The notes beneath the pieces were generated by a model. The model was not told where the DNA came from. It was given only the letters and a program-made list of their open reading frames with translations, and did not search any database. Below, one piece after another: positions 3,049 through 64,000 of a stretch of 64,000 bases of DNA. The DNA comes from an uncultured Verrucomicrobiota bacterium. Lineage in GTDB: Bacteria; Verrucomicrobiota; Verrucomicrobiia; Methylacidiphilales; UBA1321. The stretch lies in contig CAIPBM010000002.1 of NCBI GenBank assembly GCA_903863295.1, positions 1-64,000 on the forward strand, written 5' to 3'. The first letter of the stretch is position 1; every line of letters starts with the position of its first letter. The position numbers were made by a program, and so were the translations under genes.

Positions 3049-3825
3049 GTGCGTTTAAATCAATTTCTGGCCCGGGCCGGCTTCGGTTCCCGTCGTGCGT
3101 GTGAAGCGCTCATTCTCGAAGGCGCGGTCACCATTAACGGCCATCGCCTGCGCGCCCTGGCCACGCAGGTCGATGAGCAGGACAACGTCCTCGTCCACGG
3201 CAAGCCGGTGAAGATGCCCCTCACCCTCGTGGCGGTGCTGCACAAGCCGCCCGGCTATCTTTGCACCTCACCCGATTCCACCAGCGAACGCACCATCTAC
3301 GACCTGCTCCCCGCCAACTGGCCCCGGGTCGTCTACGTCGGGCGGCTCGACAAGGATTCCGAGGGCCTGCTCGTCATCACCAACGACGGCAACCTGGCCC
3401 AGCGGCTGACCCATCCCTCGCACAAGCTGCGCAAGACCTACATTGTCACGCTCGACAAGGAATTCGATTTCGCCCTCGCGCCGAAGCTCAAGAAAGGTAT
3501 CTCCATTGAAGAGGGCTTTGCCCGGGTGGACGATGTCTTCCGCGTGGGGCCTCGCACCCTGAAGGTTGTCCTGACCCAGGGCCTGAAGCGGCAGATTCGC
3601 GAGATGTTTTTCAAGCTGGGCTATGAAGTGCGTCGGCTCGTCCGCATCCAGATTGGCGAACTCACGCTCGATAAAATGCCCGCGGGACAGCATCGCGTGC
3701 TGACCCAACAGGAAGTGAAACGTTATTTCCCCACCAAACCGGTGGGCCGCTCCAGCAAGCCCGCCCCCAAGCGGAAACCTGCGCCGAACCCCCTCGTGAA
3801 AGCAAAGGAGCAGCCCCATGGCTAA
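3049..3825 (+). CDS. RsuA/RluB-family 23S/16S rRNA pseudouridine synthase
   Basis: Isomerises a specific uridine in rRNA to pseudouridine. Residues 1-55 form an S4 RNA-binding domain (MRLNQFLARAGFGSRRACE). The catalytic domain follows, with the family motif GRLDKDSEGLL in which Asp101 is the nucleophile, preceded by a KPPGYLCT block. LKRQIREMFFKLGYEVRRLVR near 180-200 is the second conserved motif of the RsuA/RluB/RluE/RluF group. The last 25-30 residues are a Lys/Pro-rich tail. Which rRNA site is modified cannot be told from sequence. The start is GTG. The 3' end overlaps the argH start by 8 bp, so the two genes are probably translationally coupled. Confidence 0.93.
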   Translation: MRLNQFLARAGFGSRRACEALILEGAVTINGHRLRALATQVDEQDNVLVHGKPVKMPLTLVAVLHKPPGYLCTSPDSTSERTIYDLLPANWPRVVYVGRLDKDSEGLLVITNDGNLAQRLTHPSHKLRKTYIVTLDKEFDFALAPKLKKGISIEEGFARVDDVFRVGPRTLKVVLTQGLKRQIREMFFKLGYEVRRLVRIQIGELTLDKMPAGQHRVLTQQEVKRYFPTKPVGRSSKPAPKRKPAPNPLVKAKEQPHG

Positions 3826-5206
3826 GAACGAATCGATGTGGGGCGGACGCTTCAAGTCCGGCGCGGCGGAACGGCTGCGCGATTACACCGAGTCGGTCTC
3901 CTTCGACCGGAACCTCTACCGGCACGACATCGCCGGGAGCATGGCCCACGCGAAGATGCTGCTGAAGATCGGCGTGCTGAAGAAGCAGGAACTGGCCGAT
4001 ATCCTCAAGGGCCTCGGCGAAATCCGGGCCGAAATCGACGCGGGCAAATTTGCGTGGAGCATCGAACGCGAGGACGTCCACATGAATATTGAAGCGGCGC
4101 TGACCGAGCGGTATCCCGCCGGGGCGAAGCTCCACACCGGCCGTAGCCGCAATGACCAGGTCGCCACCGCCATGCGGCTTTGGCTCAAGGACCAGATCGC
4201 GGAAAATCAGCAGGCGATTGCGGCGTTGCAGACGGCGCTGGTCACCTGGGCGATGCGCGATATTGCGGTGGTCATTCCCGGCTATACTCACTTGCAGCGG
4301 GCGCAACCGGTGTTGCTCGCGCATCACCTGCTCGCCTATGTCGAGATGCTGGAACGCGACCACGCGCGGCTGGCCGATGCCGCCAAGCGGGTTGATGTCC
4401 TGCCGCTCGGCTCCGGCGCGATCGCCGGGAGCACGCTGCCGCTCGACCGCGCCTTCGTGGCGAAGGAACTGGGGTTTGCGCGGGTCTCGGAGAACTCAAT
4501 GGACGCGGTGAGCGACCGCGATTTCATCGTGGAATATAACGCCGCCTGCGCGCTGCTCGCGGTGCATTTGTCGCGGCTCTCAGAAGACCTGATTTTGTGG
4601 TCCACGGCGGAGTTCCATTTCATCCGCATCGGCGATGCCTATACGACCGGCTCAAGCCTGATGCCCCAGAAAAAGAATCCCGATATCGCGGAACTGGGCC
4701 GCGGAAAATCGGCACGCGTGATCGGCAATTTGGTCTCGCTGCTCACCCTGCTCAAGGGCCTGCCCATGACCTACAATCGGGATTTGCAGGAGGACAAGGA
4801 AAGGCTCTTCGACACGGCCAAAACCGTGCAGAGCAGCCTGCTGATTTTCGCGGAGATGCTCGGCCATATCGAAGTGGATGCCGCAGCCTGCCAGCGTGCG
4901 GCGGCCGATCCGCTCCTACTCGCCACCGACCTGGCCGACTGGCTCGTCCGCAAGGGCGTCCCTTTCCGCAACGCGCATCATCTCGTCGGCGCCGCCGTGG
5001 CCCTCGCCGAGGAGAAGAAGATTCCGATCACGCAAATTCCGTTAGCCGACTGGAAGAAGATCAGCCCCGTGTTCGACAAAAGCGCGCTGGAAGTCTTCTC
5101 CGTCGAAACCGGCCTGCAAACCCGGACGACCATCGGTTCCCCCAACCCCAAGCTGGTGAAAGCACAGCTGGCGCGCTGGAAGAAGATTTTGGCGGGACGG
5201 AAGTAA
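3818..5206 (+). CDS. argH: Argininosuccinate lyase
   Basis: Last step of arginine synthesis: splits argininosuccinate to arginine and fumarate. Fumarase/aspartase superfamily, cytoplasmic homotetramer. The 462-residue length is typical. The three superfamily regions are visible: TGRSRNDQ at 107-114, YTHLQRAQP at 156-164 with the catalytic-region histidine, and the flexible signature loop GSSLMPQKKNPD at 278-289 carrying the catalytic serine. A strong ribosome-binding site (AAAGGAG, 3804-3810) lies 7 bp before the ATG, inside the upstream pseudouridine synthase gene, whose stop it overlaps. The next genes downstream are the repeat-flanked SUKH gene and lysA. Confidence 0.98.
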   Translation: MAKNESMWGGRFKSGAAERLRDYTESVSFDRNLYRHDIAGSMAHAKMLLKIGVLKKQELADILKGLGEIRAEIDAGKFAWSIEREDVHMNIEAALTERYPAGAKLHTGRSRNDQVATAMRLWLKDQIAENQQAIAALQTALVTWAMRDIAVVIPGYTHLQRAQPVLLAHHLLAYVEMLERDHARLADAAKRVDVLPLGSGAIAGSTLPLDRAFVAKELGFARVSENSMDAVSDRDFIVEYNAACALLAVHLSRLSEDLILWSTAEFHFIRIGDAYTTGSSLMPQKKNPDIAELGRGKSARVIGNLVSLLTLLKGLPMTYNRDLQEDKERLFDTAKTVQSSLLIFAEMLGHIEVDAAACQRAAADPLLLATDLADWLVRKGVPFRNAHHLVGAAVALAEEKKIPITQIPLADWKKISPVFDKSALEVFSVETGLQTRTTIGSPNPKLVKAQLARWKKILAGRK

Positions 5207-47757: not shown

Positions 47758-47834
47758 CGGGTTGTGGCTCAGCTTGGTAGAGCGCGCCGTTCGGGTCGGC
47801 GAGGTCCAGGGTTCAAATCCCTGCAGCCCGACCA
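47758..47834 (+). tRNA. tRNA-Pro (CGG), CCA encoded
   Basis: Acceptor CGGGTTG/CAGCCCG, D arm GCTC/GAGC, anticodon stem CGCCG/CGGCG with loop TTCGGGT (anticodon CGG, reads CCG), T arm CAGGG/CCCTG with TTCAAAT, discriminator A and a genomically encoded CCA at 47832-47834. Confidence 0.96.
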
Positions 47835-48219
47835 CAACTCCTCGGAAAGGATCCCTATGAGTCAGTCCATGGCCTCATTGGTTTTACGCTAGGATCCAAA
47901 CTCAGATCAGGAAATACTGAGGCTCCCATCGTTCGCTGATGTAGAGAAGAACTCTTCCACTCCATTTCATCGAAATCATTGGTCATAGGGCAGGTTCGTC
48001 CGCTTGAGATTTCCGCTATGGCTGATTTGGCCATGAAATAAAGGTTTTCAGTAGCGGCTAAATGAGCAGGTCGCTTTGCCTTTCTTCAAAATTAAGGGAG
48101 ATATAGCCCCGGCTATTCAGAGATTGATGTGTACGCAAGTAATTGGAAAAATGAGAACATCTAAACGTATCACGCTGATATATAGTAAATAGTAAATATA
48201 AGCGCAGATTAAATTTTAC

Positions 48220-48248
48220 TTGCCATTCTAACTAAGTTGTAATGTTAT
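48220..48248 (+). promoter_or_regulatory. Candidate sigma-70-type promoter of the exported-protein operon
   Basis: TTGCCA (48220-48225), 17-bp spacer, TGTTAT (48243-48248), ending 27 bp before the first ATG at 48276. The surrounding 48120-48250 is very AT-rich. The remainder of 47835-48275 shows no gene. Confidence 0.45.
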
Positions 48249-48275
48249 ACGCCCCCGAGAATGTAGGACTTACAA

Positions 48276-50336
48276 ATGCATTACGGGCCGTCAAATCGAG
48301 GCAGGGAGTTGATAAGACGATTTATATCTAAATTCGTCTGCTTTCTGATTTTTTGGAGTTTGTTACAAATTTCCGGTCCTATACGCGCAGCTGGGACAAT
48401 CTGTGCCGCTTGTCAGCTACAAGTCGACCAACAATTGACCTTCGAGCGCCAAGGATTCAATGCATCGATGACCATCACGAACGGTTTGGCAAATACCGCG
48501 CTGACCAATCTTTCGGTGTCAATATATTTTACTGACGCCCAAGGAAACCCAATTTCTTCGACTACCGATCCTAATGCCACTGGAAGTAAATTCTTCTACG
48601 AAGTCGCAAGTGGTCAGGCCGCCCCCAGTTCCGTGGCAGGTGGTTCGACGGCGACCCTGGGCTGGCTGATCATTCCCGCTCCGGGAGCGAGCGGAACCAA
48701 CCCCAACGGCACTGAGTACTATGTTGGGGCAACCTTAACCTATACGGCGGCGGGCCAGCAACAGAGCGTGACCGTTTCGCCGAACTATATTTTTGTTCAG
48801 CCGCAACCCCAGCTCACGCTCGATTATTTTTTACCGGCTCAGGTTTACGGTCGGGATCCGACTTCCACTACGGTAGCTTCTCCCATTCCATTCAATCTCG
48901 GCGTGCGCGTGACCAACTCGGGCTATGGTGCGGCCACCAATCTACAGATCAATTCGGGACAACCCAAGATTACCGATAATACCCAGGGACTGGCGGTACA
49001 ATTTGTTCTCTTGGGCGCGTCGGTCAACGACGCTCCGGTGGCCCCCACTCTGCTGGCAAATTTTGGTCTCGTGGGTGCGCAAAAATCCTCCGTTGCACGA
49101 TGGCTGATGACCAGTTCCCTCTCGGGGAAATTCAGCTTTACGGCCACGTTCACTCATGCCGATTCGTTGGGTGGAAGCGTTACTTCACTTTTAACCGGCA
49201 CAAATCCTCACGCGCTTGTGCATGATGTGCTGGTTGATTTGCCGGGCCGGGACACGGTGCGTGATTTTCTGGCCTTGCCTCAAAATGCCAGCGGCACGGC
49301 AGGTCTGGAGGTTTTTGAATCGCAGGGCATCGATACAGCGGTCAGCGACGTATCGAATTCCTCTTACCTCGCTCTCGCTGGCTCAGCCTACCAATTTCAT
49401 GTTCCCGCAATTGCAGGATTTATTTATGCGCAAGTGAGCGATCCGTTCGAAGGCCAGCAGGCCGTCCAGAGCGCCGTGCGCGCGGATGGCAAACAAATCA
49501 ACCTCAATAATGTTTGGTTCTCCCGCACATTCAACACGACCACGAGCCAATGGAACTATTATTTTAACCTTTTCGACGCCAATAACACGAGTGGATTATC
49601 CTATTCCCTTGTATTTGGCACCGGGCCGTTGCCCCCCGTTTTCGAACCGCTGACCGATCAGATCCTGACGGCGGGCCAACCCTTTAGTTTGCTGGTAACG
49701 GCCACCGACCCTGATGGAACCACGCCGGTCATTACCTCGGGGCCTTTGCCTGCAGGCGCAATAATGAGTGCATCGTCAGGCGGAAAAGCCACCCTCTCGT
49801 GGACTCCAAGCCTAGGGCAGGCTGGGAGTTTTCCGGTGAGTTTCATCGCGACGGAAGGTGCGCTTTCAACTCCGAAGACGATCACCTTGACGGTGGGAAC
49901 CGGAACGAAACTGCAAAACTGGAAGCAGAAGTATTTCCCTGGCATCACCGATCCCAACATCATTGGGGATAGTGCTAATCCATCTGGCGATGGCTTGTCC
50001 AATCTTCTCAAGTACGCTCTGAACTTTGATCCCACCAAGCAAAGTCCTAACAGCGGTATTCTCATCGGAACTATTCAGGCCAACGGACACACCTACTTGA
50101 CGTTGACTTACGTCGTTCGCACCGATGATCCCAATTTGAGCTACGCGGTGGTTGGCTCCAACTCGCCCACCGGAACTAATTCGCCATGGACGACGCAAAG
50201 CCAGAACATCACTGTCTCGCAGGATGGCGTCGCCGCGAATATGCAGCGGTTTGAGGTGCAGGATTCGCAGCCGATTGATACCGGACTCCCACGTCGCTTC
50301 ATGAAATTGCAGGTCACCAACACGGGAGCAAACTAA
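48276..50336 (+). CDS. Exported Ig-domain protein, first gene of the surface operon
   Basis: 686 residues. Signal peptide within 1-38 (FVCFLIFWSLLQISGPIRAAG); a TTG 33 bp downstream with a GAGG before it is an alternative start. A CAACQ motif follows the cleavage site. Residues about 45-190 and 190-380 look like two repeated beta-sandwich domains (FNASMTITNGLANTALTNLSV; VRVTNSGYGAATNLQI). Residues about 448-545 are a putative Ig domain (ILTAGQPFSLLVTATDPDGT). The C terminus (about 550-686) contains SGDGLSNLLKYALNFDPT, a block common at the ends of verrucomicrobial surface proteins. Function unknown, probably structural. The next gene starts 1 nt after its stop. Confidence 0.85.
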   Translation: MHYGPSNRGRELIRRFISKFVCFLIFWSLLQISGPIRAAGTICAACQLQVDQQLTFERQGFNASMTITNGLANTALTNLSVSIYFTDAQGNPISSTTDPNATGSKFFYEVASGQAAPSSVAGGSTATLGWLIIPAPGASGTNPNGTEYYVGATLTYTAAGQQQSVTVSPNYIFVQPQPQLTLDYFLPAQVYGRDPTSTTVASPIPFNLGVRVTNSGYGAATNLQINSGQPKITDNTQGLAVQFVLLGASVNDAPVAPTLLANFGLVGAQKSSVARWLMTSSLSGKFSFTATFTHADSLGGSVTSLLTGTNPHALVHDVLVDLPGRDTVRDFLALPQNASGTAGLEVFESQGIDTAVSDVSNSSYLALAGSAYQFHVPAIAGFIYAQVSDPFEGQQAVQSAVRADGKQINLNNVWFSRTFNTTTSQWNYYFNLFDANNTSGLSYSLVFGTGPLPPVFEPLTDQILTAGQPFSLLVTATDPDGTTPVITSGPLPAGAIMSASSGGKATLSWTPSLGQAGSFPVSFIATEGALSTPKTITLTVGTGTKLQNWKQKYFPGITDPNIIGDSANPSGDGLSNLLKYALNFDPTKQSPNSGILIGTIQANGHTYLTLTYVVRTDDPNLSYAVVGSNSPTGTNSPWTTQSQNITVSQDGVAANMQRFEVQDSQPIDTGLPRRFMKLQVTNTGAN

Positions 50337-50337
50337 G

Positions 50338-51435
50338 ATGAAACATCTTCTTCCACTCTTTGTTTTATTTGGGACATCCTGGTGCCTGCGTGTCATAGCT
50401 CAGGACACCGTTTCGTCGCCCCCGATGGGTTGTGTGAATCTTGTTTTACAGGGACGTGCCGACAATCTTATTTCCATTCCGCTCTTGCAGGAACCAGTCG
50501 CGATTGGTCATGTCCTGGTGGTCACCTCAACCACAGTTACGCTCGATACCTCGGGTTGGACGATTAATCAATATGCGCCAGGAGCGACGCAAAGTTTCTA
50601 TGCGGAAATTTCGACCGGCCAATTAAAAGGGCTTAGTTATGCAGTGGTGAGCAATACGGCAGATACGCTGACTCTGAATACAGGAAGCAATAAACTGACG
50701 CAACATCGATTAGGCGCGGTGGCTGTGGGCGACACCGTACGCATTCGGCCCGCTTGGACCGTGGGCACCATCTTTGGCATGAGCGATAGCGACGTTGCCC
50801 TAACGCCCTTCCCAACCTTGCCGACCTCGCTTCAGGCCGACAGCGGGGACAGCCTACTCTTTTTCGATTCCACCGCTGTCGGTATTCGGAAAACACCTTC
50901 AGCACGGCTGGTTTATGTTCAATCAACGGGCTGGCGTGCGCCTTCCGATGGAGCGACAGACCAGGAGGGGTATGTTTTGCCCCCGTTGTCTCCAGTCCTA
51001 GTCCGTCTGCATAATTCGACGGGGCAGGAAGTAGTTGTCCTTGGTGATGCTTATCAGGCTCCGGCCTTGCTTACTTTGACGGGAGGCAATGGAACGCAGG
51101 CCAATGACTCTTTTGTCGCGGTAGCGCAGTCGGAGCCGGTTTCCCTGAATAATTCGGGACTGGCCAATGCGGATTCTACTCAAAGTCTCGTCAAAGCATC
51201 ATCCTCGACCTCGCAACGGGAAGATCTTCTCCTGGCTTTTGACCCGACGCGGAAGGGTTTTGAGCGGCCTCCAGAGCATATTTATTTTTACTTGAGCGGC
51301 CAAGGCTGGGAGGAAGTTGGCTCAAACAGCATGACCGTGGGTGACAATGTCTTTCTCGATCCAGCGCAAATCTACGTGCTTCGTAAACGGGCAACCAGTA
51401 CGAGCACGGATTGGAAACAAAATTTCACCCCATGA
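50338..51435 (+). CDS. TIGR02597-like exported protein
   Basis: 365 residues. Signal peptide 1-22 (LLPLFVLFGTSWCLRVIAQ). The mature part fits the verrucomicrobial family I know as TIGR02597: an opening LVLQGRADNLISIPLLQEP, paired segments around VGDTVRIRP and LFFDSTAVG, a late IYFYLSGQGWEEV and VFLDPAQIYVLRKR near the end. The family has no known function; members lie near giant repeat proteins and pseudopilin-like cassettes in Verrucomicrobium and Chthoniobacter, as far as I recall. Translationally coupled on both sides: 1 nt after the preceding stop and an ATGA overlap with the next gene. Confidence 0.82.
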   Translation: MKHLLPLFVLFGTSWCLRVIAQDTVSSPPMGCVNLVLQGRADNLISIPLLQEPVAIGHVLVVTSTTVTLDTSGWTINQYAPGATQSFYAEISTGQLKGLSYAVVSNTADTLTLNTGSNKLTQHRLGAVAVGDTVRIRPAWTVGTIFGMSDSDVALTPFPTLPTSLQADSGDSLLFFDSTAVGIRKTPSARLVYVQSTGWRAPSDGATDQEGYVLPPLSPVLVRLHNSTGQEVVVLGDAYQAPALLTLTGGNGTQANDSFVAVAQSEPVSLNNSGLANADSTQSLVKASSSTSQREDLLLAFDPTRKGFERPPEHIYFYLSGQGWEEVGSNSMTVGDNVFLDPAQIYVLRKRATSTSTDWKQNFTP

Positions 51436-54254
51436 ACCGAACTTCCCAACATTATTTGTTGCTACTCGCCATGTTCGGCGTCATGGGCGTCGCGTGGGGG
51501 CAGACTGTCCCGACGTTGACTTCCCCCGCTGCTCTGGTGAAGAACGCTCCGAGCATTAATGGAACCGTTCAGGGTGACGTCCAGGTCATGCTGGGGCAGG
51601 GTTTCAGCTTCAATTCAAACGCCCAGGTGACCGGAAATGTTTTCGTACTGGGGACGCCAACCGTTCAAATCAACGGTAGCCCACAATATTCCGGCACGGT
51701 CAACGCAAGCGGTACTTCCGCACCGACGAATTACACCGTGACCTTGAACAGCGGAGCTAAGCTTGGGTATCTCGTACGGCGTACGAACGCTGCGACATTT
51801 GCGACAGTGAGCAATCCGCCTAGCCCGACGGGCACTCGGGATGTCAGCGTTAATTCGAGTACTAATACTTCAGGACAAATTGGCAGTTGGAGCACGTTGC
51901 ACAACCTGACCCTCAACAGTAATGTTGGGGCGGTCATGGTTCCGGCAGGCAGTTATGGCACATTTACCGCGAACTCCAATTCGAGCTTTGTGCTCGGAAC
52001 GGCGGGAGCCACGACACCGAGCACTTACTCGTTCGACGGGATTACGTTGAACAGTAGCAATACGTCGATTACGGTGGTCGGCCCCGTCGTCATCCAGATT
52101 AAAAACAGCGTGACGGTTAATAGCGGTGGGACATTCGGTAATTCCTCGCACCCCGATTGGACGAGTCTCACTATTGCCAATAGCGGGCTGACAATCAACA
52201 GCGGCGGTATTGTCTACGCTTACGTTCAGGCCCCCACGAGTACGGTCACAATCAACAACAAGTTGGTGGGCAGCGTGGTCTCGGCTAATTCCCTCACGGT
52301 CAGCAGTGGGGCTGTTTTGCAATACCAAGCGCCGACCACGGCCGCACCCACCGTCAGCATCACCAGTCCCGGCTCCGGCAGTGTTGTCCAAGGCTACGCC
52401 GCTCTCCTGATTCAGGCTTCGGCGTCAATTTCGTCGGGCAGCATTTCCAAGGTGGATTTCTACGCGAACAACGGTCAGGGCAATGTCAAAATCGGTTCTT
52501 CCACGGCTTCTCCTTATGGCTTCACTTGGAATCCGGCTCCTGGAAACTACTCACTAACAGCGATTGCCACCTCGAGTCAGGGAACAACCGCGACCTCCAG
52601 CGCGGTGACCGTCGATGTGAATGCCGCACCTAGTATGGTGATAGGCACCTCCGCTACGAACGGAGTTATTCTAGCTGGAGGAAACATTACGATCACATCA
52701 GGCGCGACCGATTCGGATGGTTCCATTTCGCTCGTCCAATTTTATGCTAATGCTCAGTTGATTGGGCAATCGACCACCAGCCCTTACAGCTTTACCTGGT
52801 CGAATGTCGCGGGTGGAACCTACCAGATCACTGTTAAAGCCACCGACAACCAGGGTGGCGTAACCACATCGTCACCGTTTTCCATTACCTCGGATATTCC
52901 TCCGACGGTTTCGCTGACAGCACCTGCCAGCGGAACCCAGGTCCAGTTACCTGCCAGTGTGACACTGACGGCGACCGCCGCTGATAGTGATGGAACCATA
53001 GCCTCAGTGACTTTCTACGCTGATTCAGGAAGCGGAGCCATTCAGGTGGGGCAGGCGACGCATGCTCCTTATACAGCGACATGGCAACAGCCAGCGGTCG
53101 GAACGTATCAGGTTGCGGCGATGGCGACTGACAACTTGGGAGCAACCACCATGTCGAGTTCCGTCCAACTCGTCGTCGGGGCTCCCCCACCTGCCCCCGT
53201 AATGGGTTCACTTGCCGGGGGGGCGGACAGTACGCTGGTCATTAAAACGAACGGCTCGGTGGAAGGCTGGGGCCGCAACCAATTCGGTCAACTCGGCCTT
53301 CTGGTCGGAACCGATGTGTTGACTCCTACGCCGGTTCCGAATATCTCGGGAGCTATCGCTGTAGCCATGGGGAGCAGTCATTCCCTCGCGCTGACCTCGA
53401 CCGGAACCGTTCTGAGTTTCGGCGACAACTATTTTGGTCAACTCGGAGATGGTACAACGACGGATCACTCGATGCCGACGCCCATTTCGGTGCCGACACA
53501 AAATGGAGCAACGGTCATAGCGATAGCGGCGGGTGACGGATTCAGCGTGGCGTTGGAATCGGATGGCAGCGTTTACACATGGGGATCGAATGCCAAAGGA
53601 CAGTTGGGACAGAACGACCAGGTGGACCGGCTGGCCCCGACGAAGATAAACGGTCTTCCGGTGATTAAAGCCATAGTCGCCGGGCGAAGCTTCGTTGTTG
53701 CGCTGACAGACGCCAAAACCCTCGTTGCCTGGGGTGAAAATCAATGGGGGCAAATAGGCGATGGCACAACGACCATGAGACTTTCATCGGTACCCATAGG
53801 TGGCCTGTCCTCGATCAGCTCCATTGCAGCTGGAGCCAACCACGCACTGGCGGTCGACACCAACGGCAACCTTTGGGCATGGGGGGAGAATGCGTTCGCT
53901 CAGGCCGGAGATGCCTCGCTGATCACCAAGCTTTCACCCCAAACTGTTCCGGGCATTTCCGGCGCGACGGCGACGGTTGGTGGCTGGAACCATTCGCTGG
54001 TCGTGACCACGGCGCAGTCGGTGATGGCGTTCGGGGCCAATGATGAGGGCCAGTTGGGAGACGGAACAGTGGTGGATAAGCCCACGCCAGTGACGATTCC
54101 AAACCTCTCGGCGGTGGTGATAGGTGCGGGCTTCGATCACTCCGCAACGATGGCCTTGGATCGGACGTTGTTCATGTCGGGCCGCAACGCTCATGGGCAA
54201 TTGGGAGCCGGAACCACGACTAGCACCTCTACTCCGACTCCTACCACCTACTGA
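51432..54254 (+). CDS. Exported protein with Ig-like domains and an RCC1-type propeller
   Basis: 940 residues from ATG 51432, whose ATGA overlaps the previous stop; signal peptide SQHYLLLLAMFGVMGVAWGQ. Residues about 30-300 are Ser/Thr/Asn/Gly-rich beta structure (AQVTGNVFVLGTPTVQINGS), resembling polymer-forming or bactofilin-like surface domains. Three Ig-like domains of about 90 residues follow (about 305-575), each with a DSDG..S.V.FYA....IG..T.SPY.F.W pattern. Residues about 590-930 hold six or seven RCC1 repeats (VEGWGRNQFGQLGLL, VYTWGSNAKGQLGQN, LVAWGENQWGQIGDG, LWAWGENAFAQAGDA), a complete propeller. Probably a surface-located binding protein. Confidence 0.88.
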   Translation: MNRTSQHYLLLLAMFGVMGVAWGQTVPTLTSPAALVKNAPSINGTVQGDVQVMLGQGFSFNSNAQVTGNVFVLGTPTVQINGSPQYSGTVNASGTSAPTNYTVTLNSGAKLGYLVRRTNAATFATVSNPPSPTGTRDVSVNSSTNTSGQIGSWSTLHNLTLNSNVGAVMVPAGSYGTFTANSNSSFVLGTAGATTPSTYSFDGITLNSSNTSITVVGPVVIQIKNSVTVNSGGTFGNSSHPDWTSLTIANSGLTINSGGIVYAYVQAPTSTVTINNKLVGSVVSANSLTVSSGAVLQYQAPTTAAPTVSITSPGSGSVVQGYAALLIQASASISSGSISKVDFYANNGQGNVKIGSSTASPYGFTWNPAPGNYSLTAIATSSQGTTATSSAVTVDVNAAPSMVIGTSATNGVILAGGNITITSGATDSDGSISLVQFYANAQLIGQSTTSPYSFTWSNVAGGTYQITVKATDNQGGVTTSSPFSITSDIPPTVSLTAPASGTQVQLPASVTLTATAADSDGTIASVTFYADSGSGAIQVGQATHAPYTATWQQPAVGTYQVAAMATDNLGATTMSSSVQLVVGAPPPAPVMGSLAGGADSTLVIKTNGSVEGWGRNQFGQLGLLVGTDVLTPTPVPNISGAIAVAMGSSHSLALTSTGTVLSFGDNYFGQLGDGTTTDHSMPTPISVPTQNGATVIAIAAGDGFSVALESDGSVYTWGSNAKGQLGQNDQVDRLAPTKINGLPVIKAIVAGRSFVVALTDAKTLVAWGENQWGQIGDGTTTMRLSSVPIGGLSSISSIAAGANHALAVDTNGNLWAWGENAFAQAGDASLITKLSPQTVPGISGATATVGGWNHSLVVTTAQSVMAFGANDEGQLGDGTVVDKPTPVTIPNLSAVVIGAGFDHSATMALDRTLFMSGRNAHGQLGAGTTTSTSTPTPTTY

Positions 54255-54259
54255 TTGTT

Positions 54260-55444
54260 ATGACTAATTTCCTTTCCAAGATTGTCTGGCTGGCGGTGGT
54301 CATAGCGCTTCTTTCAAGCGGAGAGTCTCACGCGCAATCAACGGCTCTTATTGACGACAAGACTTATGATTTTGGCCTGAATCCGATCGGGACGGTGATT
54401 CATCACACCTTCATCCTCAAAAATACGGGCAAAAAGTCACTAGCAATTCAGAAGGTCTCAACCACTTGTGATTGCACGAAAGTGAGTTCATATCCGAAAG
54501 AAATCGGTCCGGGCGAGCAGGGCGAAATCGTGGCCGTGATGGATCACCATCACGCGGGCTACACCGATGTGTCAATCAATGTACAGGCCGGGCCAAACTT
54601 GGCGGATCTTTACGTCTTTCGACTTATCGGGGTTCATATCGAAAAGCAAAAAGAAGCAGGCGCCTCGCCTGATTCCCTCTCCGCCAAGGAGGCGCTACAA
54701 TTACAATTGAAGGCTGGAAGCGTGGCCTTGATCGATTCTCGCCCGATCAATCTTTATGTTCAGGCCCATGCGAAGGGCTCACAAAACGTTCAGCCTTTTG
54801 CGTTGGAAGGACGGCAGGATTTAAAAGCCAAGACCGTTATTCTGATCGGAGAAGGAGCAGATGACCCGAAGCTTCTTTCTCAAACAGCCCGCTTGAAATC
54901 GCTTGGTTTCAAGGAAGCTCACTTTCTCGCGGGAGGGCTAAGGGCATGGCAGATGGCGGGTGGAACCATCGAAGGTTCGGCTCCGCCTCAAAGTGCGAGT
55001 CTTGCTCTGATTAATCCATCTGAATTCTACTCCGCGCAAAAAGGCGGGGGAGGCTGGGCGGTCATCGATCTCGATAATTCTAGCGATGCCTTGCCGACTA
55101 TCTACCCGGCGAAGCATCTGGTCTGGAACAAAACGAATCCTGTTATTTTTTCCAGTTCACTTAATGAGATGGCAACGAGTTCGCAGGCGGAGCGGCTTCT
55201 GGTTACTAGTTCGATGGGTTCGGATTATGACCAACTTGAGGCTTCCATGCGCGGCAGCAAGCTGAAAGTCCCGGTTTATTATCTGCAGGGTGGGAGCAAG
55301 GCGTATTTGTTCTATATGCATCAGCAGACGCTGGCGCTGGCGAGCCGAAAGATAACTGTCAAGGGCGATCAAGCCTATCTGGCGAGCGCCAAATCGATGG
55401 GACAAGTCATCCGGGGAGCAGGTTGCGGGTCATGTGGACACTAA
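54260..55444 (+). CDS. Exported DUF1573 protein with two cysteine-less rhodanese-like domains
   Basis: 394 residues. Signal peptide 1-26 (VWLAVVIALLSSGESHA). Residues about 30-125 are a DUF1573 domain: KTYDFGLNPIGTVIHHTFILKNTGKKSL and the TTCDCTKV motif. Two rhodanese-like domains follow, about 140-240 (SVALIDSRPINLYVQ ... FKEAHFLAGGLRAWQMAGG) and about 252-355 (WAVIDLDN ... VPVYYLQGGSKAYLF); in both, the loop that should carry the catalytic Cys has none (VILIGEGAD, LLVTSSMGS). The end is GAGCGSCGH, a potential metal or thiol site. Sulfur transfer is therefore unlikely; protein binding or redox sensing is more plausible. Starts 5 nt after the preceding stop. Confidence 0.85.
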   Translation: MTNFLSKIVWLAVVIALLSSGESHAQSTALIDDKTYDFGLNPIGTVIHHTFILKNTGKKSLAIQKVSTTCDCTKVSSYPKEIGPGEQGEIVAVMDHHHAGYTDVSINVQAGPNLADLYVFRLIGVHIEKQKEAGASPDSLSAKEALQLQLKAGSVALIDSRPINLYVQAHAKGSQNVQPFALEGRQDLKAKTVILIGEGADDPKLLSQTARLKSLGFKEAHFLAGGLRAWQMAGGTIEGSAPPQSASLALINPSEFYSAQKGGGGWAVIDLDNSSDALPTIYPAKHLVWNKTNPVIFSSSLNEMATSSQAERLLVTSSMGSDYDQLEASMRGSKLKVPVYYLQGGSKAYLFYMHQQTLALASRKITVKGDQAYLASAKSMGQVIRGAGCGSCGH

Positions 55445-55445
55445 G

Positions 55446-58400
55446 ATGAAAGCACTAACGAATATTTACCGAAAGGCGAACTCACCCCTCCTTAATGTTG
55501 GGGGCCGCTGCGTTGGGCTGCTGGCGACTCTGATCGCATCTAGTGTGGCTATTAGCACCCCGAGTTTTGCGCAAAGCGCTCCACCCCAAAATGGCCTTGC
55601 GGTCTGGCTAAAGGCCGATGCCGGTGTGGCTTATGATTCAATTACTGGTAGGGTCAACCAGTGGAGCGATCAAAGCGCCAGTGGCAACAACGCCTATCAA
55701 GGGAGCAGCGGTAATCAACCAACTTATGTGTCGGCTCGAACCGATCTCAATGGGAAGCCAGTTTTAAGGTTCGATGGAGGTAGCAGCTTTTTAGATGTCC
55801 CTGATAATGCAAGTCTTCAACCAGCCAATGCGGTGACGGTAATTGCTGTGTCCCAAACGCACGGCAACTGGCAGCAGGATATCGTGGCGCGGGCCTTAAC
55901 TTATAATTATTACGGGGCATGGGCTCTGCCCCCTCTCTATACTTACGGTCTCGGTTTACAGAATAATAACGTCGAAAGAGGTTATCTGGGATTCGGATCC
56001 GGAGCTAGCAATTGGCAGTCTGACCTGGCGGGCTCGACGGCGCGCGCGCAACGAATGTCGATTGCAACCATGGTGTACGATGGAACTACGGAAAACATCT
56101 ATGACAGCGGGGCTCTTCAGGGATCCAACGTGGTGACAGCTAATTTGAATTATGATGGCGGCCAGCATGACCTGCTCATCGGAGCGCATACGGCCTATTG
56201 GGGAATCACCGGCTATTTTTATGGAGATATGGCGGAGGTACTGGTTTACAATCGGGCCTTAACCCCAGCGGAGCAACAGCAAATCGAGGTCTATTTGGCA
56301 GACAAATACGGTCTCTATCATCCGAATGCGACGTGGCCGACCAGCGCAACAAATAATTATTCTGCCGCCGTGCAGGCGGAAATTATCCGTAACCAATGGA
56401 ACAAAGCGCAGGCAGATGCTTACGTTGCTTTTTTGGCCACTAATCCGGCTGTTCCGGCGACCGGACTGGTTTCATGGCTGAAGGCGGATGACAGTGTGAC
56501 ATCCGATCCCACGACTGGTAAGGTGAGTGCGTGGGGTGACCAGAGTTTCTATCAAAACAGCGCCAGTCAGGGATCGGTCGGAAACCAACCCACACTCGTG
56601 GCGAGTCGTTCCGATTTGAATAATAAACCCGTCGTTCGGTTTGACGGCGGCAGTAGCTTCCTGGACATCGCGGATAATCCCAGCCTCAAGCCCGCGAACG
56701 CAGTCACGGTCATCGCCTTGGCTCAAAATGCTGGCGGCGGTCAACAAGACATTGTTTCCCATGGGTTGTCATATAATTACTACGGAGCGTGGTCCCTGGC
56801 TCCGTTATACGGGTACGACTTGGGGGTGCAGGCCAATAATGTCGAGCGTGGTTATATCGGATTTGGCTCGGGAGCGAGCAACTGGTACGCGGACCTGTCG
56901 GGAGCGACGGCGCGACCTGCGCGAGCCTCGATCTCCACCATGATTTATGATGGGGCCAATCTTAATATTTATGATAGCGGGGCAAGTCAGGCTACCCAAG
57001 GAATCGCAGGTCCTCTCAACTACGACGGCACGAATCTGCACGACCTCATCATCGGTGCGAACTCGACATGGAATGGCATTACCAACTATTTCCACGGCGA
57101 TGTCGGCGAAGTTCTCGTCTATAACCGCGCCTTGACGCCCCAGGAGCAACAGCAGGCAGAAGTTTATCTGGCCGACAAGTATGGAGTCTATCATCCCAAC
57201 GCCAACTGGCCGAAGGCTTACAGCACCGCTGTGCAGGCGGAAATTAACCGCAATCAGTGGAATAAAAATCAGGCGGACACGTATGCGACTTTTGTGGCCA
57301 GCAGTCCGGTGCCAGCGTCCGGACTTGCCGTCTGGCTCAAAGCTGACGCGGGTGTATCGTCAGATCCGACGACGGGACACGTCAGCCAATGGTCCGACCA
57401 GAGTCCGACGGGAAATCATGCCTATCAAGGTTCGGACGGGAATTGTCCCACGCTGGTCTCCACCCGGACGGACCTCAACGGCAAGCCGGTGCTCAGGTTC
57501 GACGGAGGAAACAGTTTTCTCGATGTCCCCGACAACGTCAGCTTAAAACCTTCGACTGCAGTAACCATTATCGCGGTCGCCCAGACCAACAGCAGTGCGC
57601 AACAAGACATCGTTTCTCACCCACTCACTTGCAACTACTACGGAGCTTGGGCGCTCGCACCGATTTACAGTTACGCTTTGGGGGTTCAAGGCAACAATCT
57701 TGAGCATGGATATGTCGGGTTTGGAGACGGAGCCAGTAATTGGTATGCGGATCTGTCGGGACCGACGCGCTTCCAGCAAATGTCCATTTCAACCCTGGTT
57801 TATGATGGAAACACGCTCAACCTGTATGACAATGGAGGGGTTCAGGCCTCACAAGGCATCAGCGGTCCCATTAACTACGACGGAACGACGCCACATGATC
57901 TGCTGATTGGGGCGCGGGTTGCCTACTATGGTGGAGTGACCAGCTTTTTCAGTGGCGATATGGCTGAGGTGTTGGTTTACAACCGCGCCTTGACGCCGCA
58001 GGAACAAGAACAGGCAGAGGTTTATCTTGCGGATAAATATGGGCTCTATCGGGCGAACGCAACTTGGCCCCGGAATTACAGCGTGGCCGTGCAGAGTGAA
58101 ATCAATCGCAATCGATGGAACAAGAGCCAAGCCGATGCTTATGCGGCCTATTTGGCAACTTACCCCGCGTTGCCTCCGACCGGACTGACGATGTGGTTCA
58201 AATCCGACCAAGTTCAGGCGACAGGTGGAACAGTCTCAACCTGGATGGATCAAGGTCCATTTCATCATGATGCCGCTCAGGGTAACGGAGTTCTGCAACC
58301 GGCCTTGGTTCCTGGTGCCATCAACGGACTGCCGGTTTTGCGATTCAACAACAATTTTCTGACCATTCCCGATTCACCAACCCTGAGGCCTAATCAGTAT

Positions 58401-61400
58401 ACAATCTTCGCGATTGCCAAGGAAAACAGCACGGCAACTTACCAGACTCTATTATGTCGCCAGTACCAGGAATCCGGGGCATGGAATTATCCGTACGTGA
58501 CGTTTATTGTCGATCCGTTCGGGGTGAACGGCGGAAATTACGTCCGGTCAGCCGTTGCTACGGATCAGGGTCTGTTTGAAGCAAATAACGGTAATAAGTA
58601 CGACCTCTCGCAGTTCCATGCCTTGGAATGGAAATTTGACGGAGTCAATCAATACCTTTATTCCGATACAAACCTCGTGGGTGTCGTGGCGTCTCCCGGC
58701 AATCTCAATTATGGTGGTGGGCCTGCTAATTTGACGATTGGGACAAGAAGCGACCTCGCCACAGGAGAAAATCTCTATGCCGACGTGGCGGAGCTCATCG
58801 TTTACAATCGAGCCCTGACCGATTTTGAAAAGCGACAGGTCGAAACCTATCTGGCTGAGAGATACAATTTTGCCATTCCAGCTCCACAGATTTCCATCAA
58901 TGGCGGTATCTACTCGCAAGGCCCGCAGGTGACGATCAGTTCCGTCAGAACGGATGCAGTGATCCATTACACAACGGACGGATCGGATCCGACGACCTCC
59001 TCTACTTCCCAAATCTATACCGGGCCGTTCACGCCACCGTCCGGCTCAGTCGTTACAGCCTCGGTTACGGAGCCAGGTATAACGAATTCGAGCCCCACGA
59101 CGGTCTCCACGCCGTTCCAAGTCGATCCTCAAGCGGTATTCAATCGTTCCAGCCTCGTCATGTGGTATCGGGGAGATTATGGAATCGGGATCGATGGTTC
59201 GGGGAATGTGACTTCTTGGAATGACGCTTCAGGGTTACCGACTGGTTATCAGGCCGGACAAGGAAATTCTTCGCTTGCGCCTGCACTGATTGCAAGCGGT
59301 CTGAACGGAAAACCGGCGCTAAGATTCAATGGAAACGGTCAATTTGAACAATTGAATCAACCCATGCCGGATCTCACCGATCTGACAATTTTTGCGGTGG
59401 TTAATCCTTCCGGCAATTACGGCGCTATCTTCTGCGATTCTGATCAGGCGGGAGGTCAGGATATGTGGCTGGCCCTCGATAGCGGCAACGCCGTCATCCG
59501 GGCGGACAAACAATCGACACAATTGGCGGATGGGTATGGAAACCGGGGAGGCATTGCGGTTCCATGGGGTCTTGATACCAGCAATCAACCGCGGGTGATT
59601 TCCTGGACGGTCTCGGCGGGCCAATCATCGGTTTACCGGGAAGGCAACCTTCTTCAGACCTTCAATTTGACCGCATCCGAAGTGGGGTATCACTCGGCCA
59701 ATCCGACGATTGGTTGCTGGTGGGATCAGGGAGCGCGAGAAAGCTATTTTGACGGGGACCTTGCGGAATTCATGGTGTTCAACCAAAGCCTGTCTGATCA
59801 GGACCGCCAAGCTGTCGAGTCGTATCTGCTCAATCGTTACGCGATGGCAACGCAGGTGGGTATCCCGGTGCTTTCACAGGCACCCGGAAATTATTTGGGC
59901 AACGTCCCACTCACCATTTCCGATGCGACTCCTGGTGCTTCTATTTACTACACCCTTGATGGAACCGACCCGACACCATCGTCCACTTTGTATCAGTACC
60001 CCATCACGGTGGAATCGACCCAAACGGTCAAGGCCAAGGCTTTTAAAACAGGTCTGACGCCAAGCGCCGTAGCAGGAGGCATCTATACCATCGGCCTGCC
60101 AGCGGGAAATGGGAACGGTCTGGCGGGCCAGTACTATTCCAACACCAATCTGAGCGGTGATCCGGTTCTGATCCGGGTTGACCCGACAATCAATTTCAAT
60201 TGGAGTGGCACGCCCCCCGATCCCTCCATTGCCCACGACTATTACTCGGTGCGATGGACTGGATACGTTATTCCACAATACTCGGAAACTTACACATTTT
60301 ATACCGATTCGGATGATGGCCCGAGGCTGATCGTCAACGGTCAGGACATGATCGAGCAATTTCATGGGCAGGGTGAGACTTGGTATTCTGCTTCTATCTA
60401 CCTGAAAGCCGGACAGGCCTATCCCATCGAACTCGATTATCAGCAGCAAAATGGTCCTGCCGTAGCCCGTCTCTTGTGGAGCAGCCCTTCCACACCGCAG
60501 CAGATTATTCCTCAAAGCCAATTGGCTTCAGGTCTGCTCAATCCAGTCACGGTCACGCCGCCCGTGGCCAGCTCGCCCGGTGGGGCATTTACGATGCCGC
60601 TTACCGTTTCACTCAGCACATCAACGCCCGGTGCCACGATTGTTTACACCACCGATGGCTCACTTCCTACCCATACTTCGACCGTCTACTCGACGCCGCT
60701 TCCCATATCGACCAACACCACCCTGCGGGCTTTGGCCTTTTTGGCGGGGGACAACGATAGCCCGCCCATTACTCGAACCTTCACGTTCGATACCAGCGGC
60801 CCCACTTTAGGCACCCTGCAGTTGAACGGCGCGAATTTTGCCAATAACGCAACAATAACAACCAACGGGACATTCTCGATTGCTGCCTCCGATCCTCAAG
60901 GCGTAAGTCGTGTCGATTTCCTCGTGGATAATGCGCTGATCGGCTCTGGGTCGAACAGCTATTCGGTGAATGTAAACCTCGCCTCGCTCACGGACGGGGC
61001 GCATGTCCTCATCATCAACGCCTACGACTCGCTCGGCAATGTGACGACACAGACGGTCGATTTCACGGTACAGGAAGCGGCTCCACCGGCGCCAAACCTA
61101 ACGTCACCCTCAAACAATTTTGTTAGCGGTAGTTCTCCCATCACGGTCAAGGGAACGGCGACGCCAGGTACAACCATCACGTTCTACAATAACGGGCAGC
61201 CATTGGCCGCAACGGTTCTCGCTTCGGCCGACGGCACCTTTCAAGGCTCGGTGGGGCTCAGCAACGGCAATAACTCAATTCAGGCCACGGCTACTAATCC
61301 GGGTGGCAGGGGCGGCGAAGGGCCGAGATCTCCCGCCATGGCCGTCACGCTCAATACCGCTATTCCGAGCGCGCCCACGGCATTCCATGCAACCACACTG

Positions 61401-64000
61401 GCCGGAGGGGCGATTCAGCTTTCGTGGGGCGCGTTAACGCCGGGAACCGTGACAGGCTATAATATTTATCGCTCTACCTCCCCCTTCACTGACCCCTCGC
61501 AGGGGACAAAGATCAACTCCTCCCTCATCACAAGCGCCCAATATACCGATCTCCCATCCAGTGATGGCACTTATTATTATCTTGTAACCGCTGTCAGCAC
61601 GGCGGGTATTGAGGGAGTCGTCTCTCAACAACAAACCACGGCCTCGGATCGTACCCCTCCAGAAGCCGTCTCGATTCTTTATGCTCCGCAGGGCAACCAC
61701 GATGCAACGACGGGCGCGATGGCTCCTGGTATTGTCAACGTGACGGTCACAATGAGCGAGCCGCTGCAAACCGCGCCCTTTCTGAGCCTGACTCCAGCAG
61801 GTGGCTATCCGATCAGTATCACCTTGCAGGCCGACCCGACCTCCAACGTCCGTTACACGGGAAGCTTTGCCCTGCAATCGACCACCCCAACGGGCACAGC
61901 GACGGCGGTTCTCTCGGCCGTCGATCTGGCGGGTAATCGAGGCACGAAGATCGATGCGGGCGGAACGGCTTTATTCGATACCACTGGCCCGACCGTGACG
62001 GCGCTATTGGTCAGTCCGTCCACAGCGATTCAGAATAGCGCCAGCAATCCCGTCCAAGTCCAGGTGACAGTCACGCTGGACAAGCCGGTCAAGGACGGGA
62101 CGACGCCGGTTGTCGGTTACACGCTTTCCTCCAATCCGGGCAATGCTCTGACCTTCAGTAATGTCGTGGCTGGTTCGGATAACCTGACCTGGATTGCCAC
62201 AACGACGCTACCCGCTTCAGCGGGTTCCACGACGGAAAATATGTCGCTTACCTATAGTGGAGTTGATTATCTCGGCAATGCGGGAACGGCCATTAGCGTG
62301 CCGCATCAGTTTCAGGTCTATCAGGGCAATCTGCCAGGGTTGGCCGCTCCCTTTGGACTCGCCGCAACACCGCAGCCAGGAGGCAAAATTCAACTGCAAT
62401 GGCAGAGCGTGACCAGCGCATCGGATTACCAGCTCTACCGTCAAGGCCCAAGCGATAGCACGCTGCTACCGTTGGCTTTAAGTGGCGGAGCCGTTACTTA
62501 TCTTGATCAGACCCAAGCGGATGGAACTTACAGCTACACGGTGGCTTCGGTGCGCAGTCTCAATAGCCAGACGTCTACCGGTACACAGAGCGGTCCAGTC
62601 AATGCCCTGGCCCAAAGTCAGCCACCGCTAGCGCCCCAAAGCCTTGCTGCTTCCCTGGCAGGTTACGGAGTGGTGCTGCAGTGGCAGGCTCCCAACAACT
62701 TGAACGAAAATGTCACCTATGCGCTCTATCGTTCGGCCAATCCCATTACCAGCCTGAATGGACTGACGCCTATTGCAACCGGCATAACCGCCATCACGGC
62801 AGCCGATGCTCAACCGGATCCCTCAAAGCCAAATTATGCGGTTGCCGCTGTAGATGCTGCGGGCAACATTTCAGCTCCTTCCAACTCGGCTTACCTCGAC
62901 ACACAATTGTTGCCGGTCAGTTCCTTGAACATCACTCAATCTGACACCAATCCTCCGGTCATCAGTTGGTCGGCGGTTCCAGGAAACATTTCGGGTTATA
63001 ATATCTACCTCGGGCCAAGCGCTTCGCTCCAGCAGATCAATAGTTCCTTGCTGACGACTACTTCCTATACCGATACCGGCTATACGAACAATGAGCGTCA
63101 ATACACTCTGGTCACGGTCGACAACAGTAACCATTCCAGCGTGGGTCACAGTCTTACGCTTCCGATCTTATCGGCAACTTTGGATCCCAACGCGGTCGTG
63201 CGCAGGGGTTTGATCAATGATTTGATCTACACAGTGACGAATTCCTCGGCGGAGGCGATTTCCAACATCGATGTGCGTGTGGCGATCAACGGGAAGAGCG
63301 ATGTGTCGCCCACTTTCAGCCTACAACCGGGCCAGAGCCAGCAGGTCATGGTGGTGGTGGGAGGCGACGCCGATCTGCCACAGGAGAGTGCACCGATCCA
63401 AACCAGCATCGAAATCACTCCCCACGCAGGGGAACTCGTTTCCATCCAGCGTTCGGGAACCGTCCCGGTGGTTGACGGCGCCTTGGCAGTTTCCGTCCTG
63501 CCGTCGAATTTCACGCGGGGTGGAACGGGCAGCGTCCAATTCTCGTTAACCAATCCTTCGTCCGAGCCTGTGGAGATTATTGTCGCCCGTAATCAGGGCC
63601 AGTCCGCTTCGGACCAGATACGGATCAAAGTTATGGACGCCAACAATGTCGTCTATTCAACGACTCCGGTGAAATTCAATGTGGGGACTAATGTCATCAC
63701 TCTTTCGGACGGTAACACCGTTCTGCAGATCCCGCCGGGCGCAACGGTTACGTCGGCGGCCCAGCTTGTCTCAGTCCCCGACAACGTGCCGGACAACGCC
63801 TACGTCCAGCTCCAAATTGACCAAGTCTACTTTGACGAAGGCCAAGCGGACCAAGTTGTGCTTTCAGGGTTGACCTCACGCCAGGCGGTCAATGTGGTGG
63901 CCACCAGCTATTTTGTGACGGTCACCAGTGTTTCGCCTGCTACCTCCAACGGTACCCAGCCTGTGTTGATTAGTGGCACTGCCACCTTCCGCGTCACCAA
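55446..64000 (+). CDS. Giant modular surface protein, N-terminal part (runs off the window)
   Basis: Open from ATG 55446, 1 nt after the preceding stop, to the window edge without a stop: at least 2851 residues. Signal segment GLLATLIASSVAISTPSFAQ. Order of domains by nucleotide position: three near-identical LamG-type units of about 290 residues (55590, 56460, 57320) joined by a repeated helical linker (EIxRNQWNKxQADAY), a diverged LamG (58180), a chitobiase C-terminal-type domain (58880), another LamG (59130), a second chitobiase-C domain (59870), a PA14 domain (60110-60510), a third chitobiase-C domain (60540), Ig-like segments, then several FN3-type domains (61370, 62340, 62620, 62910) and further beta domains. 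No catalytic domain is seen. Likely a giant glycan-binding adhesin. Confidence 0.9.
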   Translation, partial: MKALTNIYRKANSPLLNVGGRCVGLLATLIASSVAISTPSFAQSAPPQNGLAVWLKADAGVAYDSITGRVNQWSDQSASGNNAYQGSSGNQPTYVSARTDLNGKPVLRFDGGSSFLDVPDNASLQPANAVTVIAVSQTHGNWQQDIVARALTYNYYGAWALPPLYTYGLGLQNNNVERGYLGFGSGASNWQSDLAGSTARAQRMSIATMVYDGTTENIYDSGALQGSNVVTANLNYDGGQHDLLIGAHTAYWGITGYFYGDMAEVLVYNRALTPAEQQQIEVYLADKYGLYHPNATWPTSATNNYSAAVQAEIIRNQWNKAQADAYVAFLATNPAVPATGLVSWLKADDSVTSDPTTGKVSAWGDQSFYQNSASQGSVGNQPTLVASRSDLNNKPVVRFDGGSSFLDIADNPSLKPANAVTVIALAQNAGGGQQDIVSHGLSYNYYGAWSLAPLYGYDLGVQANNVERGYIGFGSGASNWYADLSGATARPARASISTMIYDGANLNIYDSGASQATQGIAGPLNYDGTNLHDLIIGANSTWNGITNYFHGDVGEVLVYNRALTPQEQQQAEVYLADKYGVYHPNANWPKAYSTAVQAEINRNQWNKNQADTYATFVASSPVPASGLAVWLKADAGVSSDPTTGHVSQWSDQSPTGNHAYQGSDGNCPTLVSTRTDLNGKPVLRFDGGNSFLDVPDNVSLKPSTAVTIIAVAQTNSSAQQDIVSHPLTCNYYGAWALAPIYSYALGVQGNNLEHGYVGFGDGASNWYADLSGPTRFQQMSISTLVYDGNTLNLYDNGGVQASQGISGPINYDGTTPHDLLIGARVAYYGGVTSFFSGDMAEVLVYNRALTPQEQEQAEVYLADKYGLYRANATWPRNYSVAVQSEINRNRWNKSQADAYAAYLATYPALPPTGLTMWFKSDQVQATGGTVSTWMDQGPFHHDAAQGNGVLQPALVPGAINGLPVLRFNNNFLTIPDSPTLRPNQYTIFAIAKENSTATYQTLLCRQYQESGAWNYPYVTFIVDPFGVNGGNYVRSAVATDQGLFEANNGNKYDLSQFHALEWKFDGVNQYLYSDTNLVGVVASPGNLNYGGGPANLTIGTRSDLATGENLYADVAELIVYNRALTDFEKRQVETYLAERYNFAIPAPQISINGGIYSQGPQVTISSVRTDAVIHYTTDGSDPTTSSTSQIYTGPFTPPSGSVVTASVTEPGITNSSPTTVSTPFQVDPQAVFNRSSLVMWYRGDYGIGIDGSGNVTSWNDASGLPTGYQAGQGNSSLAPALIASGLNGKPALRFNGNGQFEQLNQPMPDLTDLTIFAVVNPSGNYGAIFCDSDQAGGQDMWLALDSGNAVIRADKQSTQLADGYGNRGGIAVPWGLDTSNQPRVISWTVSAGQSSVYREGNLLQTFNLTASEVGYHSANPTIGCWWDQGARESYFDGDLAEFMVFNQSLSDQDRQAVESYLLNRYAMATQVGIPVLSQAPGNYLGNVPLTISDATPGASIYYTLDGTDPTPSSTLYQYPITVESTQTVKAKAFKTGLTPSAVAGGIYTIGLPAGNGNGLAGQYYSNTNLSGDPVLIRVDPTINFNWSGTPPDPSIAHDYYSVRWTGYVIPQYSETYTFYTDSDDGPRLIVNGQDMIEQFHGQGETWYSASIYLKAGQAYPIELDYQQQNGPAVARLLWSSPSTPQQIIPQSQLASGLLNPVTVTPPVASSPGGAFTMPLTVSLSTSTPGATIVYTTDGSLPTHTSTVYSTPLPISTNTTLRALAFLAGDNDSPPITRTFTFDTSGPTLGTLQLNGANFANNATITTNGTFSIAASDPQGVSRVDFLVDNALIGSGSNSYSVNVNLASLTDGAHVLIINAYDSLGNVTTQTVDFTVQEAAPPAPNLTSPSNNFVSGSSPITVKGTATPGTTITFYNNGQPLAATVLASADGTFQGSVGLSNGNNSIQATATNPGGRGGEGPRSPAMAVTLNTAIPSAPTAFHATTLAGGAIQLSWGALTPGTVTGYNIYRSTSPFTDPSQGTKINSSLITSAQYTDLPSSDGTYYYLVTAVSTAGIEGVVSQQQTTASDRTPPEAVSILYAPQGNHDATTGAMAPGIVNVTVTMSEPLQTAPFLSLTPAGGYPISITLQADPTSNVRYTGSFALQSTTPTGTATAVLSAVDLAGNRGTKIDAGGTALFDTTGPTVTALLVSPSTAIQNSASNPVQVQVTVTLDKPVKDGTTPVVGYTLSSNPGNALTFSNVVAGSDNLTWIATTTLPASAGSTTENMSLTYSGVDYLGNAGTAISVPHQFQVYQGNLPGLAAPFGLAATPQPGGKIQLQWQSVTSASDYQLYRQGPSDSTLLPLALSGGAVTYLDQTQADGTYSYTVASVRSLNSQTSTGTQSGPVNALAQSQPPLAPQSLAASLAGYGVVLQWQAPNNLNENVTYALYRSANPITSLNGLTPIATGITAITAADAQPDPSKPNYAVAAVDAAGNISAPSNSAYLDTQLLPVSSLNITQSDTNPPVISWSAVPGNISGYNIYLGPSASLQQINSSLLTTTSYTDTGYTNNERQYTLVTVDNSNHSSVGHSLTLPILSATLDPNAVVRRGLINDLIYTVTNSSAEAISNIDVRVAINGKSDVSPTFSLQPGQSQQVMVVVGGDADLPQESAPIQTSIEITPHAGELVSIQRSGTVPVVDGALAVSVLPSNFTRGGTGSVQFSLTNPSSEPVEIIVARNQGQSASDQIRIKVMDANNVVYSTTPVKFNVGTNVITLSDGNTVLQIPPGATVTSAAQLVSVPDNVPDNAYVQLQIDQVYFDEGQADQVVLSGLTSRQAVNVVATSYFVTVTSVSPATSNGTQPVLISGTATFRVT

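Follow-up and report, generated by a model that had tools for sequence, protein, structure and literature searches.

Most of what is understood about Rhs toxins concerns their delivery by T6SS. The locus described here encodes an Rhs giant that carries a signal peptide and is genetically tied to a defined group of exported partners, in a Verrucomicrobiota genome (G000) in which no T6SS was detected. It offers a way to ask how Gram-negative bacteria lacking a T6SS could display Rhs toxins. Our main reading, to which we give a probability of about two in three, is that the locus encodes an Rhs polymorphic toxin exported through Sec, together with exported partners dedicated to it.

Described Rhs polymorphic toxins (PMC2935791, PMC3482391) have in common with this locus a YD/RHS shell, an Rhs core, a variable tip, an adjacent small ORF and orphan core-tip cassettes. 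Unlike them, the G000 locus adds a Sec signal peptide, a large N-terminal region containing LamG, PA14 and a module named Mid, and conserved exported partners, and it is without T6SS, PAAR or VgrG. Contact-dependent systems of the CDI/two-partner secretion type (CdiA-CdiB) are alike in combining a giant exported protein, an exchangeable toxin tip and a putative immunity gene. However, no filamentous-haemagglutinin/TPS domains occur among the Pfam matches of the G000 giant, and its operon includes no CdiB-like gene.

Organization of the locus

The window analysed is a stretch of 64,000 nucleotides (C2:1-64000) of contig C2, which is 71,701 nt long. Five consecutive plus-strand genes run from position 48276 (Table 1) with intergenic gaps of 1, -4, 5 and 1 nt; genes 2 and 3 overlap by an ATGA read directly from the sequence, and the ATG of gene 5 lies 1 nt past the TAA of gene 4. 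A signal-peptide-like hydrophobic stretch opens all five proteins, that of gene 2 being the weakest by hydropathy. Open reading frames and hydropathy bear out the coupling and the signal peptides of the original prediction, and its domain calls were likewise confirmed: a Big_9-like Ig match (below cut-off), TIGR02597, Big_7 with RCC1, DUF1573 with Rhodanese, and LamG with PA14. The plausible promoter it placed upstream of gene 1 was not recovered by a consensus scan of 47835-48300. The five coupled genes are real, but the set is larger than proposed: gene 5 is cut by the window edge and continues into the rest of the contig, and a sixth gene follows, giving an operon-like run of six. Because the window ended early, the identity of the system had been missed.

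The same-genus genome G002 shares the flank and the tRNA-Pro gene with G000, after which different genes follow. The IgN domain of gene 1 and full-length gene 4 homologues were absent from seven same-genus genomes. Composition was considered as a sign of a genomic island and set aside as uninformative (operon GC 54.1% versus 55.8%).

Table 1. Features of the locus on contig C2; residues are those of the encoded protein.
Feature	Position in C2	Strand	Description
tRNA-Pro (CGG)	47758-47834	+	left edge of the operon
Gene 1	48276-50336	+	686 aa, exported; IgN (N-terminal, residues 39-450, about 410 residues), Big_9-like Ig, C-terminal Verrucomicrobia-type module
Gene 2	50338-51435	+	365 aa, exported; TIGR02597 family by profile match
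Gene 3	51432-54254	+	about 940 aa from ATG, exported; N-terminal domain, 3 Big_7, 7 RCC1
Gene 4	54260-55444	+	394 aa, exported; DUF1573 and tandem rhodanese-like domains
Gene 5, part inside the window	55446-64000	+	LamG repeats, chitobiase-C/Fn3-associated domains, PA14, start of Mid
Gene 5, whole	55446-71003	+	5,185 aa from ATG 55446; 5,189 aa from GTG 55434 (longest frame)
Mid module of gene 5	61074-65693	+	residues 1881-3420
TM hairpin of gene 5	65559-65705	+	residues 3376-3424; two hydrophobic segments
RHS/YD shell of gene 5		+	residues about 3531-4968; C-terminal half, beyond the window
Rhs-associated core of gene 5		+	residues 4892-4968
Variable tip of gene 5		+	residues 4969-5189, about 220 residues, after the Rhs core
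Putative immunity ORF	71009-71578	+	189 aa; 5 nt past the giant's stop; N-terminal membrane helix
Second Rhs-core copy	71596-71701	+	contig end, 18 nt past the 189-aa ORF

The giant protein

Gene 5 had been described as a giant LamG/PA14 adhesin or scaffold. The LamG and PA14 domains are present, but the C-terminal half of the protein consists of RHS and resembles Rhs polymorphic toxins. Its profile matches comprise 26 RHS_repeat matches, PF05593 (414 bits) and TIGR01643 (YD repeats), and the Rhs-associated core matches TIGR03696 above cut-off (72 bits). RHS/YD repeats with an Rhs-associated core are a sequence criterion for Rhs polymorphic toxins. Among solved structures, the RHS part matches T6SS Rhs proteins, Tse5, and teneurin-like and TcC shells. 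A plain adhesin was rejected on the ground that RHS repeats continue the giant past the window. A further divergent RHS-containing gene lies elsewhere in the genome (G000:C162:39647-41734, open frame of 1,744 aa).

Variable tip, candidate immunity protein and displaced cassettes

The last 106 nt of C2 are 100% identical to the Rhs core DNA at 69399-69504. Contig C6 also terminates in Rhs core DNA, on the minus strand, and holds two orphan core ends, each running into a different tip and then into small ORFs. Across the three aligned cores the DNA is near-identical, homology breaks off sharply at the core boundary and the tips are unrelated; a conserved core with a non-homologous variable tip, and alternative tips in the same genome, is the Rhs pattern. 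C2 and C6 are separate contigs, which we infer to adjoin. In Rhs loci, incoming tips displace older ones and leave dissociated core-tip fragments downstream (Jackson et al., PMC2935791). Because the orphan core-tip ends match this displacement model, they are read as an array of displaced tips.

By eye, the tip of the giant contains the motif VHHLN..N..H..AAH, which sets VHH, N, H and H against the [AG]HH, N, H, H, Y signature of Tox-AHH. The HH, N, H, H pattern is common to the tip and to the Tox-AHH/HNH-EndoVII toxins (PF14412), whereas VHH replaces [AG]HH and searches of Pfam (including PF14412) and PDB gave no match. In G071 a homologue of the tip (33-40%) is likewise attached to an Rhs core; its motif reads FAHHVNPLKG..N..H..AAH, and both the pre-toxin region and the HH/N/H positions are common to the two. 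HNH/EndoVII nuclease toxins have been tabulated (PMC3482391), and the shared residues suggest that the tip is a nuclease of this HNH/AHH-like type. An AlphaFold2 model of the tip was unusable (pLDDT 31) and was set aside. No homologues of the tip were found in viral contigs and plasmids.

The 189-aa protein has no family match and nothing usable in PDB; membrane-anchored and encoded directly behind the giant, it is a putative cognate immunity protein. By eye its C-terminal part recalls SUKH immunity proteins, a resemblance on which no claim is based. Judged by sequence, the locus has the hallmarks of a polymorphic toxin, its toxicity and immunity being putative.

Conservation of Mid and IgN

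The giant's Mid module has a conserved partner in the IgN domain of gene 1 (both names coined here). Among 384 genomes of the class, IgN occurs in 36, Mid in 33 and both in 32 (P about 4e-41, a statistic that treats genomes as independent, which does not hold for relatives). Physical pairing is the stronger evidence: for 45 of the 48 Mid copies, an IgN lies on the same strand of the same contig, with a median gap of 1.1 kb. Mid precedes IgN in 43 copies; the reverse order is confined to G000 and G008. IgN is also present in other classes of Verrucomicrobiota. An AlphaFold2 model of gene 1 (pLDDT 82) is a string of Ig-like beta-sandwiches, and Foldseek searches of PDB with IgN returned generic Ig-like chains at low TM-scores and no specific relative; the C-terminal module of gene 1 is common among exported proteins of relatives.

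The pair occurs in several architectures. Mid and IgN may be fused in one giant protein (for example G205); a Mid giant with a HINT domain at its end may be followed by an IgN gene of ~1,330 aa and usually then a rhodanese-like gene; or Mid-RHS-tip may be followed, usually after a small ORF, by IgN (G366, G173, G225). Mid, Rhs and IgN are also present in Spongiibacter thalassae and Gilvimarinus algae, which show the last arrangement with Mid and Rhs as separate genes. A Planctomycetota relative encodes Mid-RHS-PT-HINT-AHH followed by an Imm11-like ORF (Imm11 match below cut-off); it carries PF14412 itself, and its IgN lies on a different contig. Because the fused form exists in other species, the split Mid and IgN genes point to a joint function, and the single surface or secreted system of the original prediction gains backing from these fusions and from the conservation of the pair.

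About 20 genomes have Mid-IgN in giant proteins with no RHS detected in the stretches examined, which argues that Mid-IgN is not toxin-specific. These giants, most of those in the class, are also what a surface adhesin or biofilm-matrix system would predict, one in which Mid-IgN giants are structural and RHS forms a binding shell with no delivered toxin. LamG, PA14 and Ig are binding domains and the HINT-ending giants carry just short tails, as this explanation would have it. Variable tips past a conserved core, orphan core-tip cassettes and small ORFs directly 3' are, however, hallmarks of polymorphic toxins, as is PT-HINT with AHH in the Planctomycetota relative, and we regard a purely structural role as unlikely.

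Pseudo-rhodanese and TIGR02597 proteins as recurring partners

Gene 4 homologues adjoin Mid/IgN in about 13 loci, including those of G008, G366, G225, G263, G255, G071, G135, G217, G266, Spongiibacter and G339; in G339 the protein adjoins Mid although the IgN search found none there. G063 has a single rhodanese domain beside Mid/IgN, and no pseudo-rhodanese was detected at the G173, G385, G170, G305 and G154 loci. In gene 4 and the aligned homologues the active-site loop lacks the catalytic Cys of an active rhodanese. Gene 4 has a C-terminal GCGSC tail, and its DUF1573-bearing homologues mostly end in a GC.xC tail; across gene 4 and its homologues the tails read GCGSCGH, GCGACK, GCATCPGKR and GCGTCPKK.

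Gene 2 scores 128 bits against TIGR02597 (curated cut-off 50), a family to which, to our knowledge, no function has been assigned. Matches above cut-off were found in G000, G366, G170 and G063, and G008 has a protein 49% identical to gene 2. The family member adjoins IgN/Mid in G008, G366, G170 and G063, and this recurring link with IgN/Mid giants is new as far as our searches reach. In G170 and, with a weak match, in G366, its neighbours include small PEP-CTERM-like proteins.

IgN, the Mid giant, the pseudo-rhodanese and TIGR02597 recur together in relatives, contrary to the lack of any conservation that would have refuted the original prediction, but the exact order and the RCC1 gene (gene 3, local to the G000 locus) do not recur. 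A strict five-gene order was rejected: TIGR02597 and IgN are swapped in G008, and IgN follows Mid in most other loci. The suggested link to Verru_Chthon pseudopilins gained no support, cassette A-D genes being absent among ten neighbours in the relatives' loci.

The unconserved order, the local RCC1 gene and the lack of the locus in the seven same-genus genomes would fit six independent exported genes, adjacent by chance or through general secretome clustering, with no joint function. Against this, IgN, Mid, pseudo-rhodanese and TIGR02597 are linked repeatedly across orders and phyla, and Mid and IgN are naturally fused. Such chance clustering is very unlikely, and the linkage already disfavours it for genes 1, 2, 4 and 5, though not for gene 3.

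Export and proposed mechanism

The giant's TM hairpin is missing from the relatives G008, G366, G173 and G225; it is a possible recombination scar and could hold the giant in the inner membrane. Its first segment is CTERM-like (best match under cut-off, E 0.26, suggestive only) and its second signal-peptide-like (LALPKRAYAQ). A hairpin with no counterpart in relatives, together with patchy presence within the genus, could mark a degraded locus, in which the giant is broken or mis-recombined and intact export has been lost. Yet the 15.6-kb frame is free of stops and the neighbouring genes are intact, and decay of this kind seems highly improbable. A T6SS-delivered effector is barely credible: T6SS Rhs structures are the closest to the RHS shell, but the giant has a signal peptide and no PAAR or VgrG domain, and TssC was not found in G000 (about 94% complete) or in most of the carriers tested, among them G008, G366, G173, G225 and the two Gammaproteobacteria. 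Since no T6SS gene was found, export of the giant via Sec is likely.

Under the preferred reading of a Sec-exported Rhs toxin locus, Sec would carry all partners across the inner membrane. Mid would associate with IgN, as expected from their fusion into a single polypeptide elsewhere; together with the pseudo-rhodanese and TIGR02597 proteins, the two would assemble the giant on the outer surface or anchor it there. The LamG/PA14 domains may bind neighbouring cells or polysaccharide while the RHS shell would enclose the tip; contact would release the tip, a probable HNH/AHH-like nuclease, into the target, and the 189-aa protein would protect the producer.

The new part is the conserved exported partner set, whose trafficking context seems to be undescribed: the gene set did not appear in the literature searched on TIGR02597, DUF1573-rhodanese and Verrucomicrobia Rhs. 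One testable system now takes in TIGR02597, IgN and exported rhodaneses that are catalytically dead. More tentatively, Mid, IgN, the exported tandem pseudo-rhodanese and TIGR02597 may form a surface export or anchoring system of Verrucomicrobiota that displays giants and is partly shared with some Gammaproteobacteria and Planctomycetota. Gene orders suggest that toxin cassettes (RHS-tip-immunity, or HINT) could have entered between Mid and IgN and split what was originally a continuous polypeptide. If true, this would be an undescribed display system for giants, which toxin cassettes turn into a weapon.

Additional genes accompany some of the relatives' loci. G008 has two more Rhs loci (L132 on C19 and L134 on C42), in which one or more LamG genes precede a separate Rhs gene, with a small ORF after it; at the C42 locus there is, in addition, a relative of the RCC1 gene's N-terminal domain. 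A transposase-like gene (called from sequence only) lies between IgN and the small ORF behind Rhs in Gilvimarinus algae (L052:9178-9876). In Spongiibacter thalassae, rhodanese-like, transglutaminase-core and 482-aa genes stand directly 5' of Mid (L129:9183-12432), and the transglutaminase might be a partner that acts in processing or cross-linking.
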